Assembly: GCF_900343155.1 (NCBI RefSeq)
Contig: NZ_OUNG01000001.1
Coordinates: 372,001-436,000, forward strand
Source: Lactimicrobium massiliense
Lineage (GTDB): Bacteria > Bacillota_I > Bacilli_A > Erysipelotrichales > Erysipelotrichaceae
Direction of reading: 5' to 3'
Length of the DNA stretch: 64,000 nt
The notes under the pieces were generated by a model. That model was not told where the DNA came from. It did not search any database and saw only the letters and a list, made by a program, of their open reading frames with translations. Positions 56,551-62,095 of the stretch are shown here, piece by piece. Each line of letters starts with the position of its first letter. Position 1 is the first letter of the stretch. Both the position numbers and the translations under genes were made by a program.

Positions 56551-56570
56551 AAAACCGGGTTTCCCCGGTT
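56551..56570 (-). terminator. Terminator of the dlt-like operon
   Basis: On the minus strand AACCGGG-GAAA-CCCGGTT followed by TTCATTTT, 8 bases after the carrier-protein gene. Confidence 0.85.
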
Positions 56571-56578
56571 CAATGTTG

Positions 56579-56806
56579 TCAGTTTTCCTGCAGTCTCTGT
56601 ACCATCTTCCAGATCGCTTCGGCTGAGTTGAAGTTCTCCGGTGTCATTTCAGCGGCATCAACCTCAATGTCGAAGGCATCTTCCAGTTCAGAGACCAGTG
56701 AGATGATGGCAAAGGAATCCAGCAGATGGTTGTCAATCAGCTTTGTCTCTTTTGTATAGTCAATACTGTCATCAATATCGTTGAGAATTTCCAATACACG
56801 ATCCAT
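56579..56806 (-). CDS. Acyl/aminoacyl carrier protein (DltC-like)
   Basis: A 75-residue acidic helical carrier protein. The Ser that would take the phosphopantetheine arm is in LLDSFAIIS near residue 31, matching the DltC/ACP motif. It is the last gene of the operon, 15 bases after the decarboxylase gene, and should carry an activated amino acid as a thioester for transfer to a surface polymer. GGAGG precedes the ATG. Confidence 0.88.
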   Translation of the reverse strand: MDRVLEILNDIDDSIDYTKETKLIDNHLLDSFAIISLVSELEDAFDIEVDAAEMTPENFNSAEAIWKMVQRLQEN

Positions 56807-56821
56807 GATTTTATCCTCCAG

Positions 56822-58015
56822 TTACTCTGCTATTGTAGCGCATCCGGCACCATTGAGCATCCATGTTTCACGTCTGCTTCTGGCCAGCAGCAATCCATTC
56901 TGGTCCACAAGCCAGACAGCCGGCAGCTCATGAGAGAGAAACAGACTCATACCTTCATAGAATGAATAAGCTCCGGTATTGCCAAAGACAAGGATATCAC
57001 CTTTGTGCAGCTGGGCATGTTTGAATCCCGAGACAAGGATGTCATTGGTCGTACATAATGACCCACAGATGGCATAGGTTTCTTCTGATCCAGGCTGCTG
57101 TGTGGAAATGACGTCGATGTTGGGAATGTACATGCCGCGCAGCTGGCCGTCATAATGCAGCTGATGAATGCCGCCGTCACAGATGACATAGTTGGTGCTG
57201 TCGGTTGTTTTCAGATCCTCAACCGCTGTGCAGTAGCTGCCGCAGGAATAAGCAAGTGCCCTGCCCATCTCCACACTCTTATGTCCCTGCCACTTCATGC
57301 CGGCAAGCAGAGCCTTGAATTCAGCCAGACTTTCCGGTGTTGTGACAGTTTCCTTCTGATCCACAAAGTACGGCACACCAAAACCGGTGCCATATTCCAG
57401 CATCTGCAGATGATATCCTGTTTCTGCTTCAGCCGACTGCAGGAAGGCATCAAGCATCGCAATTTCTTTGGTATGTTTCTTCAGCATCTTTTTCTGGGTG
57501 CCGGAGAAGAAATGAATGCCCTTGATATGCAGATATGGATACTGGTCACGATGCGCAATCAGGCCTTTGACAGTCTCAGCATCCATGCCAAACTGAGAGC
57601 CGCTGGAAAGCCGCGGCAGTACTTCTAATGTCAGGCCAAGCGCTTTGCCGCAGGCATTGAGAATCTCCATCTGGTCAGGTGATTCAGCAGTGTACAATGC
57701 CGCATCTTTGCCATAGCCAGCCATTTCTCTGGCATCTTCTTCTTTCTTGAGAACACCGGAGATCAGCAGTTTTTCCGGCCTGATGCCAAGATGGCGGCAC
57801 AGACAGAACTCGCCAAACGAACAGACTTCAATGTGTTCGGCAATCTTTGCAGCAGTGCTGGTCAGAAAGGGATTGGCCTTCATGGAGAATGTCATGCCCG
57901 TGTCTAAGCCAATGCCATTGTGCAGATAGGCAAAACGATTGCGGAAGACGTCCAGATCAAACACATAGGCTGGCGTGCCTTCCTTTTCCAGCTGAGAAAG
58001 CAGATCCTTGTTCAT
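56822..58015 (-). CDS. PLP-dependent decarboxylase, ornithine/DAP type (BtrK-like)
   Basis: A 397-residue fold-type III enzyme. The PLP Lys is in FSMKANPF near residue 47; the barrel carries GSQFGMD, HFFSGTQ and EYGTGFGVPYF, and the C-terminal domain has CGSLCTTNDIL and GAYSFYEGMSLF. These fit the diaminopimelate/ornithine decarboxylase family, which includes BtrK, a decarboxylase of carrier-bound glutamate. The neighbours are an adenylating enzyme (4-base overlap) and a carrier protein (15 bases). It therefore probably decarboxylates an amino acid, possibly while bound to the carrier. It is not an alanine racemase. Substrate unknown. Confidence 0.85.
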   Translation of the reverse strand: MNKDLLSQLEKEGTPAYVFDLDVFRNRFAYLHNGIGLDTGMTFSMKANPFLTSTAAKIAEHIEVCSFGEFCLCRHLGIRPEKLLISGVLKKEEDAREMAGYGKDAALYTAESPDQMEILNACGKALGLTLEVLPRLSSGSQFGMDAETVKGLIAHRDQYPYLHIKGIHFFSGTQKKMLKKHTKEIAMLDAFLQSAEAETGYHLQMLEYGTGFGVPYFVDQKETVTTPESLAEFKALLAGMKWQGHKSVEMGRALAYSCGSYCTAVEDLKTTDSTNYVICDGGIHQLHYDGQLRGMYIPNIDVISTQQPGSEETYAICGSLCTTNDILVSGFKHAQLHKGDILVFGNTGAYSFYEGMSLFLSHELPAVWLVDQNGLLLARSRRETWMLNGAGCATIAE

Positions 58016-59517
58016 TGTACAACCTCCAGATTGGCCAGCTGTTTACGGTCAATCTTGCCATTCTTATTCAGAATGAATGATTTTACGTGGACGAAGCGGT
58101 TTGGCACCATGTATACAGGCAGCTTGCTCTTGAGCGCAATATGCAGATCACGCTTGTCACAGGTGCCGGTGTAATAGGCAATGATCAGGCTTCTTTCCTG
58201 ATTGTAGGCACAGCAGCTGCGCGCTACCCCATCCATGCTGTCAATGCCGCGCTCCACTTCTTCCAGCTCAATTCTGTGGCCCATATGCTTGATCTGGAAA
58301 TCACGGCGGCCGGCAAAGTACAGCTTGCCATCTTCACCAATCACGGCAAGATCGCCTGTCAGATATGTACGCACACCATCACGCATCACAAAATGCGTTC
58401 TGGTCTGTTCAGGGTTGTGATAATAGCCCAGTGCGAGTGATTCACCCGATACGGCAATCTCACCTTCGGCGCCAATGCCATCAACCTGCCTGCCGTCTTT
58501 ATCCAGCAAAACGACCTTACGGCCCGGGAACACCTTGCCAAGAGAGAGCTTTTCACCCTTCTGCACCACATGATCAATGACTTCATACGTGCAGTTGCAG
58601 GTGATTTCACTTGGTCCATACAGATTGACATACAACGCATCCGGCAGATATTTCTGCCAAATGGCAAGCTGTCTTGCCGGCATCACCTCACCAGAGAACA
58701 TGACGCGGTGAATTGCGGATGGAACTTTATAGCTGAATCCCTTCAGACCAGAGATGATGCACAGGGCACTGACAGCCCAGGTCAGGCTTGTTACCTTCTG
58801 ATCGATCAGATAATCAATCAGACGTGCCGGCGTAGAGAAGTATTCACGGGGAATCAGCACCATTCTGGCACCTGTGGCCATACTGCTGTAAATATCTTTG
58901 GTGGATACATCAAAATCAAATGGTGCCTGGTTGCCAATGACATCATCATGTGAAAAGTGGAAGATTTCCACAAAGTGGCCGATGAAATCCAGCACATCGC
59001 CATGAGAGATCAGCACACACTTCGGCACGCCGGTAGAGCCGGATGTAAACAGGCCGTACAGTGGTGAATTGCGGTTGATCTGACCTCTGTTTTTGTTCAG
59101 CAGATCTTCATCTGCTGTTTCCTGGAATACATCTTCCAGCAGGAGTGTTCTGCCTTTCCAGCCAGTACTGTTCAATGTTTCCACAAGAGATTTCTGCACG
59201 ATGACAGCGGCTGGTTCCAGTACTGTCAGAATACTGGCAATGCGGGCAGAAGGCTGTTCAGGATTGATCGGCACATAGAAGCCCCCGGCATAGACAGCGC
59301 CAAACATTGCTGCCAGCATGGCGCAGGATTTATCCGCAAATACAGCCACTGGCAGACAAATATTGTCGCAGCCGTCTTTGCATAATGCTGTGCCAATTCC
59401 CCTGGCAGCAGAGACAAGTTCATGCCAGCTTAAGGCAGATGAAGGATCACAGACAGCTGTTTCACTGCCATATGTTCCTGCTGTTTTTTCCAGCACATCA
59501 AGAATATTCTCAGGCAT
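58012..59517 (-). CDS. DltA-like amino-acid adenylating enzyme
   Basis: A 501-residue ANL-superfamily ligase that activates an amino acid with ATP and loads it on the carrier protein. Core motifs: GLFTSGSTGVPKCVLISH near residue 152, NLYGPSEITCNCTYE near 300, YLTGDLAVIGEDGKLYFAGR near 385 and KNGKIDRKQL near the end, with the catalytic Lys. Length and the CNCTYE region resemble DltA. The specificity pocket cannot be read reliably, so the amino acid is unknown. It overlaps the DltD-like gene by 8 bases. Confidence 0.88.
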   Translation of the reverse strand: MPENILDVLEKTAGTYGSETAVCDPSSALSWHELVSAARGIGTALCKDGCDNICLPVAVFADKSCAMLAAMFGAVYAGGFYVPINPEQPSARIASILTVLEPAAVIVQKSLVETLNSTGWKGRTLLLEDVFQETADEDLLNKNRGQINRNSPLYGLFTSGSTGVPKCVLISHGDVLDFIGHFVEIFHFSHDDVIGNQAPFDFDVSTKDIYSSMATGARMVLIPREYFSTPARLIDYLIDQKVTSLTWAVSALCIISGLKGFSYKVPSAIHRVMFSGEVMPARQLAIWQKYLPDALYVNLYGPSEITCNCTYEVIDHVVQKGEKLSLGKVFPGRKVVLLDKDGRQVDGIGAEGEIAVSGESLALGYYHNPEQTRTHFVMRDGVRTYLTGDLAVIGEDGKLYFAGRRDFQIKHMGHRIELEEVERGIDSMDGVARSCCAYNQERSLIIAYYTGTCDKRDLHIALKSKLPVYMVPNRFVHVKSFILNKNGKIDRKQLANLEVVQ

Positions 59518-60460
59518 TGTTTCCTCCTTTGGCCTTCAGATACTTTGCGGCCAGCGAATTCCAGACTGCAGCCACATCATCATTGCGGTGGTCCTGCAGA
59601 TCATAGTGGTCAGCGAGATAGCTGCCAAGATAGGCAGTTGTCTTTTCAGCACCGAAGAAGTTGAGATGATCTCCCTTGTCACGCGTATCCGCGTCCCAGG
59701 AGATATTCAGCTCTTTCAGTTTTGTATTCAGATCAATGTATTCCAGATTTTCATCCGCCGCAAGCTCTTCCAGAGCATTGTGCTTGGCAACCGTATAATT
59801 CTTCGGACTCGGTGCTGAGTACAGGATCAAAGAAGCGCCGTTTTCCTCGCACAGCTTTTCAATGGCATGCAGAGATTCAATATTGGCTTCCGGAATATTT
59901 TTGATCTTGCCAGTTTCTTCCATGTAATCACCGCCTTTATAAGGCTTGACGCTGCGGTTGATGGAGAAACCCATGAAACTCTGGGAAGAAAATGGTGTAA
60001 ACAGCGTCTTCCAGAAGTTGTGATAGCGCAGGATCGGGAATGTGTTGTAAATTACTTCGGCAAGATCTGACTTCTGCTGGGTCAGTGATGATGCTTTGAC
60101 CTTGCGGAAAAAGCCATTGGTTTCCAGCAGAATCACGCTTGGTTTCTGCGTTTGGAAAACAAGCCGCAAAACTTCTACCGTTTCCTGCAGCTTGGCACCC
60201 GGCTGACCGCCGTCATAGCTTGTGTAGCCGTATTTCAGCCAAAGCTCCATCGGATTCATGGAACTATAGGAAAGCGAGTCACCAACCGCAATGACATCCA
60301 GGGAATTCTTTTCCTGGCTGGCAATGCCGCTGTAAACTGCATTCCTGCCTGAGACAAGATTGTGATCGATCATATAGTTCGGGGTCAGGATCTTACCCGG
60401 CACAATGAGCAGAGCGGCAAGGATGATGAAGAACAGAAGATTTCGCATTACTTTTTTCAT
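59510..60460 (-). CDS. DltD-like SGNH-fold membrane-anchored protein
   Basis: A 316-residue protein with an N-terminal membrane anchor (about residues 5-25) and an extracytoplasmic SGNH-type domain: GDSLSYSS near residue 60 holds the Ser and DKGDHLNFFGAEK near 270 the Asp/His pair. This fits DltD or AlgJ/X-like partners of MBOAT acyltransferases, which finish transfer to the polymer outside the cell. The start is fixed at 60460 by AAGGAGG; the longer frame is not supported. It begins 13 bases after the MBOAT gene. Confidence 0.85.
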   Translation of the reverse strand: MKKVMRNLLFFIILAALLIVPGKILTPNYMIDHNLVSGRNAVYSGIASQEKNSLDVIAVGDSLSYSSMNPMELWLKYGYTSYDGGQPGAKLQETVEVLRLVFQTQKPSVILLETNGFFRKVKASSLTQQKSDLAEVIYNTFPILRYHNFWKTLFTPFSSQSFMGFSINRSVKPYKGGDYMEETGKIKNIPEANIESLHAIEKLCEENGASLILYSAPSPKNYTVAKHNALEELAADENLEYIDLNTKLKELNISWDADTRDKGDHLNFFGAEKTTAYLGSYLADHYDLQDHRNDDVAAVWNSLAAKYLKAKGGNNA

Positions 60461-60473
60461 CTTATGTTCCTCC

Positions 60474-62015
60474 TTAGAACCCAGCATAGATCAGATCTAC
60501 CGGATCATAGCCGGCACCATAGGCACCCAGCAGCGCAATGGCAATGATCAGACTGTAGTAGATAGCCCAGCGGCGCGGTGTGGAAAGCTGCGGCACATTG
60601 GTTAACAGATCCGGATTCTTCTCCATCCTGAGATCTACAATGGCAACGATGATGATGCCAGCCAGAATCACGATGTAATCACCCAGATCAAGATTCAGAT
60701 CCATGACATTGGCAAGAAAACCAGAGATAAACGGTGTGGTAAACAGTTCCTTCATCATGTGGCCAAACTGGGCCAGCGTGCTGCAGCGGAACAGTGTTTC
60801 ACCCAGACAGATAATAATCCAGGTACGCACCCGGCAGAACCATACAAACCCTGCTGCATTCTCAGACCAGTGCAGCTTTTCCAGCAGTTTGTCCTGTACA
60901 GGTTTGAGCATAACTTCCAGCAGCAGAATAACAAAGTAATAGACGCCATACATGATGTAGGGCCACTCACCGCCATGCCACAGTCCGTTTAACAGCCATA
61001 CTGGCAGTAAGGCAATGGCACTGGTGACGACATTGGTCAGATATTTACCGCAGTGTTTGCGGCCGAATCTGCCCCATTTCTTCATCAATTTCGAGGTAGA
61101 TACCGGGAAGAAGATGTAGTTCTTGAACCAGGTGCCAAGAGAGATATGCCATCTACGCCAAAATTCCGCCGCATTGCGGGCCAGGAATGGCTGCCGGAAA
61201 TTCTCAGGCAGTTTGACTCCAAACAACTGGGCACTGCCGATGACAATATCGATCGTACCGGAGAATTCCAGATACAGCTGGACAGTCACGACAACTGATG
61301 AAAAGATGACCATCATGCCGGTGTATTCGGCATGGACAGAGAACAGTTCATTGACCAGGGTGTTCATGCGGTCAGAGATGACCATGCGCTTGAACAGGCC
61401 CCATAGAATTCGTACACCGCCGGTTGTGATGCTCAGACCGGTAATCGGATTGCCGGCAAACAAGGTATCGGCTTCATCTTCCCATCTGCCCATCGGGCCT
61501 TCCATGACTGTGGCAAAAAACATCAGGTACAGCATGACCTTCAATGGGTTGTGTTCTGCCTTGATTCTGCCCCAGTGGACATCCAGCAGATAACTGATGG
61601 CCTGCAGGGAATAGAAGGAAATACCAATCGGTGCAATCAGTTTGGGAATGGTGATCTCATGATGGGTAATTGCCGCATAATTACTCAGGACAAAAGGTGT
61701 GTATTTCAGATAAGCAAGTGCTGCAACGATCAGGAATCCCGCTGCAAAGCAGACTCTGCCGGAAGCTTTCTTCATCTTTTTCCGGCTTTCCCGATCAACT
61801 GCCTTCTTTTGAAAATGTTCCATCCAAAGACCTGCTGCCCAGCAGATCAGTGCGGCGGCGATGCACCATACAATCAGCTCATGACTGATGAGCCAGAAAA
61901 AGACGGCACTGCCGCCAAGCAGCGTAAGCCAACGGAACTTCTTCGGGGTCAGCTGGTAGGCCAGCATCAGTGCCGGCAGGAAATATATAAAGTAAACGTT
62001 AACGTTATAAGACAT
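60474..62015 (-). CDS. MBOAT-family membrane transferase (DltB-like)
   Basis: A 513-residue polytopic protein of the MBOAT family. The conserved block FWRRWHISLGTWFKNYIFFP near residue 295 and the catalytic His in NGLWHGGEW near residue 345 are clear. About ten to twelve membrane segments. It is longer than DltB (about 400 residues), with an added C-terminal membrane part. It should take the aminoacyl group from the carrier and pass it across the membrane. GTGAGGTG precedes the ATG at 62015, which defines the start; it heads a five-gene operon. Confidence 0.88.
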   Translation of the reverse strand: MSYNVNVYFIYFLPALMLAYQLTPKKFRWLTLLGGSAVFFWLISHELIVWCIAAALICWAAGLWMEHFQKKAVDRESRKKMKKASGRVCFAAGFLIVAALAYLKYTPFVLSNYAAITHHEITIPKLIAPIGISFYSLQAISYLLDVHWGRIKAEHNPLKVMLYLMFFATVMEGPMGRWEDEADTLFAGNPITGLSITTGGVRILWGLFKRMVISDRMNTLVNELFSVHAEYTGMMVIFSSVVVTVQLYLEFSGTIDIVIGSAQLFGVKLPENFRQPFLARNAAEFWRRWHISLGTWFKNYIFFPVSTSKLMKKWGRFGRKHCGKYLTNVVTSAIALLPVWLLNGLWHGGEWPYIMYGVYYFVILLLEVMLKPVQDKLLEKLHWSENAAGFVWFCRVRTWIIICLGETLFRCSTLAQFGHMMKELFTTPFISGFLANVMDLNLDLGDYIVILAGIIIVAIVDLRMEKNPDLLTNVPQLSTPRRWAIYYSLIIAIALLGAYGAGYDPVDLIYAGF

Positions 62016-62095
62016 GGACACCTCACATGCAACGACAGCTAGTATATCCCTGTCAAAGCACAGTGTCATAAGAATTCAGTAATCTTAAGGTTTTT

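Follow-up and report, generated by a model that had tools for sequence, protein, structure and literature searches.

The 64,000-nt window analyzed here (the whole stretch of Lactimicrobium massiliense DNA under study; NZ_OUNG01000001.1, positions 372,001–436,000) contains a compact operon at window positions 56579..62015. In it, five minus-strand open reading frames (ORFs) between 62015 and 56579 encode an MBOAT acyltransferase, an SGNH-type protein, an adenylation enzyme, a pyridoxal phosphate (PLP) decarboxylase and a carrier protein. This gene set recurs in other genera and families. Its decarboxylases have intact active-site residues and lack the glutamate typical of LysA, its adenylation enzyme has lost the cavity that accommodates D-alanine in DltA, and an acyl-shuttle motif is fused to its MBOAT. 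We consider it fairly probable that the operon carries out a Dlt-type aminoacylation of the cell envelope in which the amino acid is decarboxylated while bound to the carrier. That the product is specifically a β-alanyl group is a tentative proposal, held with somewhat less than even confidence.

In the mechanism that we propose, the adenylation enzyme would activate an acidic amino acid at its side-chain carboxyl. Aspartate is the best candidate and glutamate a less likely one; Asp203 would hold the amino group of the substrate, and its other carboxylate would pair with Lys207. The activated amino acid would be loaded onto phosphopantetheine at Ser31 of the carrier, where the PLP decarboxylase would remove the free α-carboxylate to give β-alanyl-S-carrier or, from glutamate, γ-aminobutyryl (GABA)-S-carrier. 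This amine-bearing acyl group would cross the membrane by way of the MBOAT, which would take it up on its own C-terminal Tyr510; the SGNH protein would then transfer it, via its serine, to a hydroxyl group on a polymer of the envelope and so add positive charge. The substrate, the order of the steps, the acceptor and decarboxylation on the carrier are what we infer. Aspartate giving β-alanyl is favored over glutamate giving GABA because the amine-binding Asp of the pocket is retained.

The five-gene set is a conserved module

The initial annotation had described five tightly packed genes of these kinds, and the ORFs and Pfam matches bear this out at the same place and on the same strand. Pfam cut-offs were passed by the MBOAT, the AMP-binding domain and both ornithine/diaminopimelate (DAP)/arginine decarboxylase domains; the same search gave no match for the SGNH protein or the carrier of the window. 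Adjoining genes of the operon overlap or lie at most 15 bases apart, the adenylation and decarboxylase genes overlapping by 4 bases, and the inner starts are preceded by Shine-Dalgarno-like sequences.

Searched with the decarboxylase, 60 relatives yielded 10 close matches (E 4.5e-91 to 1.3e-72), not counting that of the own genome; the next-best match stood at 1.7e-18, and the remainder were weak and at the level of LysA. In a class-wide sample the decarboxylase was present at E ≤ 1e-50 in 17 of 395 genomes, spread over five families, and a phylum sample of 392 genomes held 15 with it, one of these genomes being new. A scan of genome contigs with the single decarboxylase yielded one weak relative (L035), which bears the LysA motif. 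Matches that the search had flagged with one stop in three genomes (G411, G208, and G295) were full-length open frames on reading.

We compared the gene neighborhoods of 23 distinct loci reached by way of the decarboxylase, counting the window locus. The adenylation, decarboxylase, carrier and MBOAT genes occur together in all 23. The SGNH gene is present in 21; in the other two (L040 and L111) the available stretch runs out directly behind the MBOAT gene or within it. Around 20 LysA-level matches of the same query, none of the other four genes was found (0/20, in stretches of 2.5–4.2 kb). Thus, the dlt-like system with an integral decarboxylase that had been proposed from the window alone is a conserved module. 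The check suggested with it, for a conserved order MBOAT-DltD-DltA-decarboxylase-carrier, bore out the gene content and not the order, of which there are four arrangements. With A, DC, and CP for the adenylation, decarboxylase and carrier genes, A-DC-CP-MBOAT-SGNH is found in 13 of the 23 loci (two truncated loci agree with it), MBOAT-SGNH-A-DC-CP in four, among them the window locus, SGNH-MBOAT-A-DC-CP in three, and MBOAT-SGNH-A-CP-DC in one (L036). Of the flanking gene families, just four recur among the 12 loci clustered, each in two loci.

Protein distances between loci are correlated for the six of ten possible gene pairs that were compared (r 0.73–0.89), and none of 2000 permutations reached values as high; common ancestry of the host genomes could contribute to the correlation. 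It was computed over 20 of the 23 loci, without L045, L075, and L111, whose genes are split or truncated. The MBOAT gene lies in two open frames in L045 (3084-4616) and L075 (6500-8010), through decay or sequencing error, and the decarboxylase frame of L075 is short too. The divergent module L036 (7215-12970), with its order A-CP-DC and with Ile and Arg replacing the pocket Asp and Lys, has glycosyltransferase-like and flippase-like neighbors (matches below cut-off).

Adenylation enzyme, decarboxylase and the likely substrate

The stand-alone adenylation enzyme, an amino acid–carrier ligase (58012..59517, minus strand; 501 aa; AMP-binding, E 1.4e-54), is nearest to DltA and to the A domains of nonribosomal peptide synthetases (NRPSs). 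Its predicted model has a predicted local distance difference test (pLDDT) score of 88.8 and matches DltA (3e7w) with a template modeling (TM) score of 0.90. DltA is its top-scoring named family; however, the enzyme scores 288 bits against the DltA model TIGR01734, with a cut-off of 559.85, and the D-alanine cavity is lost. In DltA the methyl group of D-alanine lies in a cavity formed by Leu, Met, and Cys, the Cys setting the choice of enantiomer (PMC8972799; here and below, papers cited by PMC number are cited from excerpts). A comparison of the pocket with that of DltA, as the initial annotation had suggested, places Val204, Lys207, and Ser275 at these three positions (equivalence by motif spacing). 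With the cut-off missed and the cavity residues changed, the enzyme is, on sequence criteria, not DltA. DltA itself was found above the curated cut-off in none of 21 genomes (the own genome and 20 relatives) and in two of 14 control genomes; DltA-like enzymes reach E ≤ 1e-60 in eight of the 21. "D-alanine ligase" labels in the own lineage may be wrong.

Ordinary D-alanylation with a bystander decarboxylase would account for DltA being the top-scoring named family and for an MBOAT profile that matches only DltB among solved structures. The missed DltA cut-off and the changed cavity led us to reject it, and a decarboxylase that is linked in all 23 loci, with gene distances that correlate, also speaks against a bystander; we give this explanation next to no probability.

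The pocket stretch Asp203 to Lys207 (58897..58911, minus strand) corresponds to GrsA positions 235 to 239. Asp203, Val204, and Lys207 are kept in 22 of the 23 decarboxylase-linked loci, and L036 has Ile, Ala, and Arg instead. Over ten positions, which we take to be 235, 236, 239, 278, 299, 301, 322, 330, 331, and 517 in GrsA numbering and which were placed by motif alignment, the pocket code is D-V-K-S-(M/L/I)-S-(L/V)-C-N-K in 22 of 23 linked enzymes and I-A-R-A-L-S-Q-A-S-K in L036. D213 of Pls_A binds the amine, and a salt bridge to the far amino group is formed by E217, which comes four positions later (PMC11253843). Since Lys207 likewise follows Asp203 by four residues, a far carboxylate is predicted for the substrate here, and the conserved Lys, as placed by alignment, fits a dicarboxylic substrate.

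At E ≤ 1e-100 the class sample of 395 genomes held 31 adenylation matches, spread over 28 of the genomes. The 17 matches at the top of the ranking (E ≤ 4.6e-195) came from the same 17 genomes that carry the decarboxylase, and no such decarboxylase was seen beside the other 14. In a tree that contains long branches, 22 of the 23 linked enzymes group together (Shimodaira–Hasegawa-like approximate likelihood ratio test, SH-aLRT, 93), with the divergent L036 outside.

The decarboxylase (56822..58015, minus strand; 397 aa; PF00278 and PF02784) belongs to the alanine-racemase (AR)-fold PLP enzymes and is encoded beside the ligase and the carrier in 23 of 23 loci. Residue counts and a tree were made for 22 of the 23 (without L111), together with 16 LysA-type proteins from 21 loci looked at. 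All 22 decarboxylases share the PLP-binding Lys46, the motif Glu249-x-Gly-Arg, Cys321, and Asp325 without exception, and the AR-fold PLP active site is, by these residues, intact. The residue after Cys321 is Thr in 19 and Ser in three of them and never Glu, whereas Glu follows the motif Cys in 15 of the 16 LysA-type proteins, 14 of which read exactly CESGD. In LysA this Glu reads the second amino center of the substrate. The lysA model is matched at 137.7 bits, with a cut-off of 297.9; this score and the lost CESGD Glu rule out the LysA of lysine synthesis, and by score and motif the enzyme is not LysA. It also stands, with its linked relatives, on one side of a supported branch from the 16 LysA-type proteins, in a tree with long branches. 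The own genome has another LysA-like gene, with the motif CENND, at G000:C7:268221.

Diaminopimelate would be a substrate in keeping with the LysA superfamily, to which the decarboxylase belongs: one end of DAP would be loaded and the other decarboxylated, giving lysyl-S-carrier and lysyl esters. Lys207 could then grip the far carboxylate during activation of the α-carboxyl near Asp203, an arrangement in line with the geometry described for Pls_A (PMC11253843). We nevertheless regard this variant as very unlikely, as the Glu associated with the second amino center is gone in 22 of 22 decarboxylases, loading free lysine would be simpler, and no precedent was met in the literature looked at.

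Compared with solved structures, the family profile of the decarboxylase scores highest with BtrK (205 bits), followed by SbnH (180; 6knh, which is SbnH per the Foldseek listing) and LysA (167), and the fold match to BtrK has a TM score of 0.85. BtrK turns a glutamyl carrier into a GABA carrier, and BtrK, SbnH, and MccE are enzymes for conjugated amino acids that form one clade with LysA (PMC7857480). The case of glutamate, in which the γ-carboxyl would be loaded and the α-carboxylate removed as by BtrK, with GABA esters on the polymer, gains from BtrK being the best solved match and from its making a GABA thioester on its own carrier (PMC7857480). On the other hand, Asp203 is kept in 22 of 23 loci, as in the β-amino-acid enzymes in which this residue contacts the amino group (PMC11284099), and γ-activated Glu would put the amine one carbon further off; we think glutamate unlikely.

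For decarboxylation on a carrier following loading by an A enzyme, the precedent is VinN/VinL/VinO, in which 3-methylaspartate is loaded on a stand-alone carrier and then decarboxylated by a PLP enzyme; thioester formation must precede decarboxylation there, and FlvN recognizes Asp (PMC11284099). The reverse order, with the decarboxylase producing, for example, β-alanine from free Asp (or GABA from Glu) for the adenylation enzyme to load, is exemplified by incednine, where IdnL3 makes 3-aminobutyrate from β-glutamate and an A enzyme loads it (PMC11284099), and gene adjacency alone leaves the order of the steps unfixed. We find it distinctly unlikely for this operon, since the pocket Lys or Arg of all 23 linked enzymes would then have no carboxylate to pair with and the decarboxylase profile is nearest to enzymes for conjugated substrates.

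Several points weigh against decarboxylation of aspartate or glutamate on the carrier as we propose it. If Lys207 acts like E217 of Pls_A (PMC11253843), activation would fall on the α-carboxyl, and a PLP enzyme could then not α-decarboxylate Asp or Glu on the carrier. Lys is also found at position 239 in five of the 14 decarboxylase-free paralogues, and for this reason Lys207 is not by itself proof of decarboxylation. In the excerpt of PMC9113097, the Lys of NRPS domains specific for Asp or 3-methyl-Glu lies at 278, not 239, and in that of PMC6518819 a fungal Glu code has no Lys among its eight listed positions. In L036, Ile replaces the amine-binding Asp. The linked enzymes rank first in the class sample partly by construction, because the adenylation profile was built from linked loci. 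Taken alone, the window decarboxylase scores higher with LysA than with BtrK (91.6 vs 76.2 bits), and in the Foldseek ranking the first three places go to LysA structures and the fourth to BtrK, so that the BtrK-type assignment of the initial annotation stands for the family profile and not for the single protein. Finally, the mechanism draws on sequence, structure matches and literature, not on biochemistry.

The 14 decarboxylase-free paralogues, from which L110 (an NRPS-like A domain) was left out, fall into two types by pocket code. A DAKS-type pocket with Lys is found in L046 (in the own genome), L116, L117, L119, and L126. The other nine (L118, L120, L121, L122, L123, L124, L125, L127, and L128) have an SMSS-type pocket without the amine-binding Asp, with Ser in its place and an Asp at position 330; eight of these nine have carrier and MBOAT genes next to them within the stretch examined, and they possibly use another unusual substrate. 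Judged by these codes, the same class contains two further dlt-like types that have neither a decarboxylase nor the DltA cavity. The L046 locus (L046:3505-7940; G000:C7 near 146400) is a second dlt-like locus of the own genome, arranged A-CP-MBOAT-SGNH; its pocket code is DAKSAGLGMK, an asparagine-synthase-like gene adjoins it, and its SGNH motif is GDC, not GDS.

Proposed membrane transfer and operon setting

The MBOAT (60474..62015, minus strand; 513 aa; PF03062, E 6.6e-13) is related to DltB and has a C-terminal extension. Its match to the DltB model TIGR04091 covers residues 3-378 (147 bits, E 8.6e-43, cut-off 375), the PDB matches of its family profile are DltB only, and it is longer than the solved DltB chains of 425 and 440 residues. 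His347, Tyr510, and Phe513 are invariant in all 16 sequences aligned (of 23 loci). The C-terminal hexapeptide LIYAGF (60477..60494, minus strand) ends in the Y-x-x-F of an acyl-shuttle motif, as does every MBOAT read to its end (22 linked loci and L046; L111 is truncated), with the first motif position relaxed to F, P, L, or M. The FXYXXF acyl-shuttle motif is carried by the microprotein DltX in the Dlt system and by the C-terminus of PatA itself, where the Tyr is acetylated (PMC12148441). By its motif, the MBOAT of the operon has the shuttle fused to it, in the role of DltX, and the operon has no room for a separate DltX gene because its intergenic gaps are at most 15 bases.

The SGNH-type protein (59510..60460, minus strand; 316 aa from MKKV), with its hydrophobic N-terminus, is the presumed final transferase; an alternative upstream ATG at 60487 would make its gene overlap the MBOAT end. 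It had been called DltD-like, a label that does not survive: no DltD match was found in Pfam, NCBIfam, or PDB, and the family profile has no PDB match. Lipase_GDSL_2 is matched weakly by three of 17 family members, and Ser62 and His265 are invariant in all 17 aligned (of 21 known). These Ser/His motifs and a gene position next to the MBOAT mark it as SGNH-type. The carrier (56579..56806, minus strand; 75 aa) has its presumed phosphopantetheine site at Ser31 in L-D-S-F; it scores 42.5 bits with PRK05087 (DltC), below the cut-off of 68, and the serine of D-S-F is present in every aligned locus row. The one ACPS-type transferase found in the own genome could, from its family, prime the carrier. 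The own genome also encodes a lipoteichoic acid synthase-like protein, with a sulfatase domain over cut-off and 43 of 970 bits in the LtaS model, and a phosphoglycerol-transferase-like protein below cut-off. Teichoic acid, which the initial annotation named as the acceptor alongside another polymer, is a candidate.

A promoter-like site (62041..62069, minus strand; ATGACA-17-TATACT, 10/12, a consensus match only) precedes the MBOAT start, which we set at 62015 because the ATG at 62069 falls inside this site. A terminator-like hairpin (56552..56571, minus strand; 8-pair stem and T-rich tail, a pattern match only) lies 3' of the carrier gene. Both sites are only suggestive, since the two scans find about twice as many sites as they do in shuffled sequence. 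The upstream flank is presumably a DNA-polymerase-Y/YolD-like pair and the downstream one a metal-binding-domain-like protein, both of which we take to be unrelated to the operon. A mobile origin was considered and is unsupported by plasmid matches, viral contigs or base composition. The decarboxylase search against plasmids gave 176 records, with identity of at most 28.8% among the 25 matches listed, and one plasmid match (H1) sits in an unannotated stretch; no relative was confirmed in the viral contigs searched with the decarboxylase. Third-position GC is 53–60% in the five operon genes and 51–53% in three neighboring genes.

Relation to known systems

Masking of envelope charge by D-alanine is, in many bacteria, a main defense against cationic peptides, and D-alanylation is textbook chemistry. 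If our proposal is true, the module would represent a second conserved chemistry, in which the charged unit is made on the carrier; the cargo range of MBOAT/SGNH pairs would be widened, and "D-alanine ligase" labels would need care across whole lineages. The chances seem to us evenly balanced that this is a new modification of envelope charge, with β-alanyl, GABA or DAP-derived lysyl esters arising from on-carrier decarboxylation and delivered by a self-shuttling MBOAT. The module would also offer a small purified-enzyme system for direct testing of the on-carrier decarboxylation idea. No paper describing the five-gene module was among the matches listed in the open-licence literature; each half is known, and what is new, to the extent seen here, is that the two are combined and that the combination is conserved.

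With the Dlt pathway (DltA/B/C/D/DltX) the operon shares an adenylation enzyme, a carrier, an MBOAT, an SGNH-type partner and the acyl-Tyr shuttle motif. It differs in having a decarboxylase added, the D-alanine cavity lost, the shuttle Tyr fused to the MBOAT, and an SGNH protein that is not DltD by sequence. The PatA/PatB system of peptidoglycan O-acetylation likewise combines an MBOAT with a C-terminal FXYXXF shuttle and an SGNH partner (PMC12148441); the donor is acetyl-CoA there and presumably a carrier-bound amino-acyl group here. The exosortase A-associated TIGR03098/TIGR03099 pair (NCBI family models) comes from the same superfamilies of ligase and AR-fold decarboxylase, and both models are far below cut-off here (163 of 592 bits, and 134 bits with a cut-off of 478.45, respectively).

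With butirosin BtrI/BtrK the operon shares an AR-fold PLP decarboxylase with a partner carrier, and the motif L-C-T-x-x-D. Here, however, the product would go to the MBOAT and SGNH protein for the envelope, not to an antibiotic, and the ligase is an AMP-forming A enzyme, whereas BtrJ is another kind of ligase. The initial annotation had taken BtrJ/BtrI/BtrK as its model, which suits the family profile of the decarboxylase; the loading enzyme is better matched by VinN/VinL/VinO and FlvN. These represent the nearest published logic, because the loading enzyme of the operon is an AMP-forming ligase of that kind: in them, too, an A enzyme charges a stand-alone carrier with a dicarboxylic β-amino acid, which a PLP enzyme then decarboxylates in place, with a product that feeds a polyketide synthase (PMC11284099).

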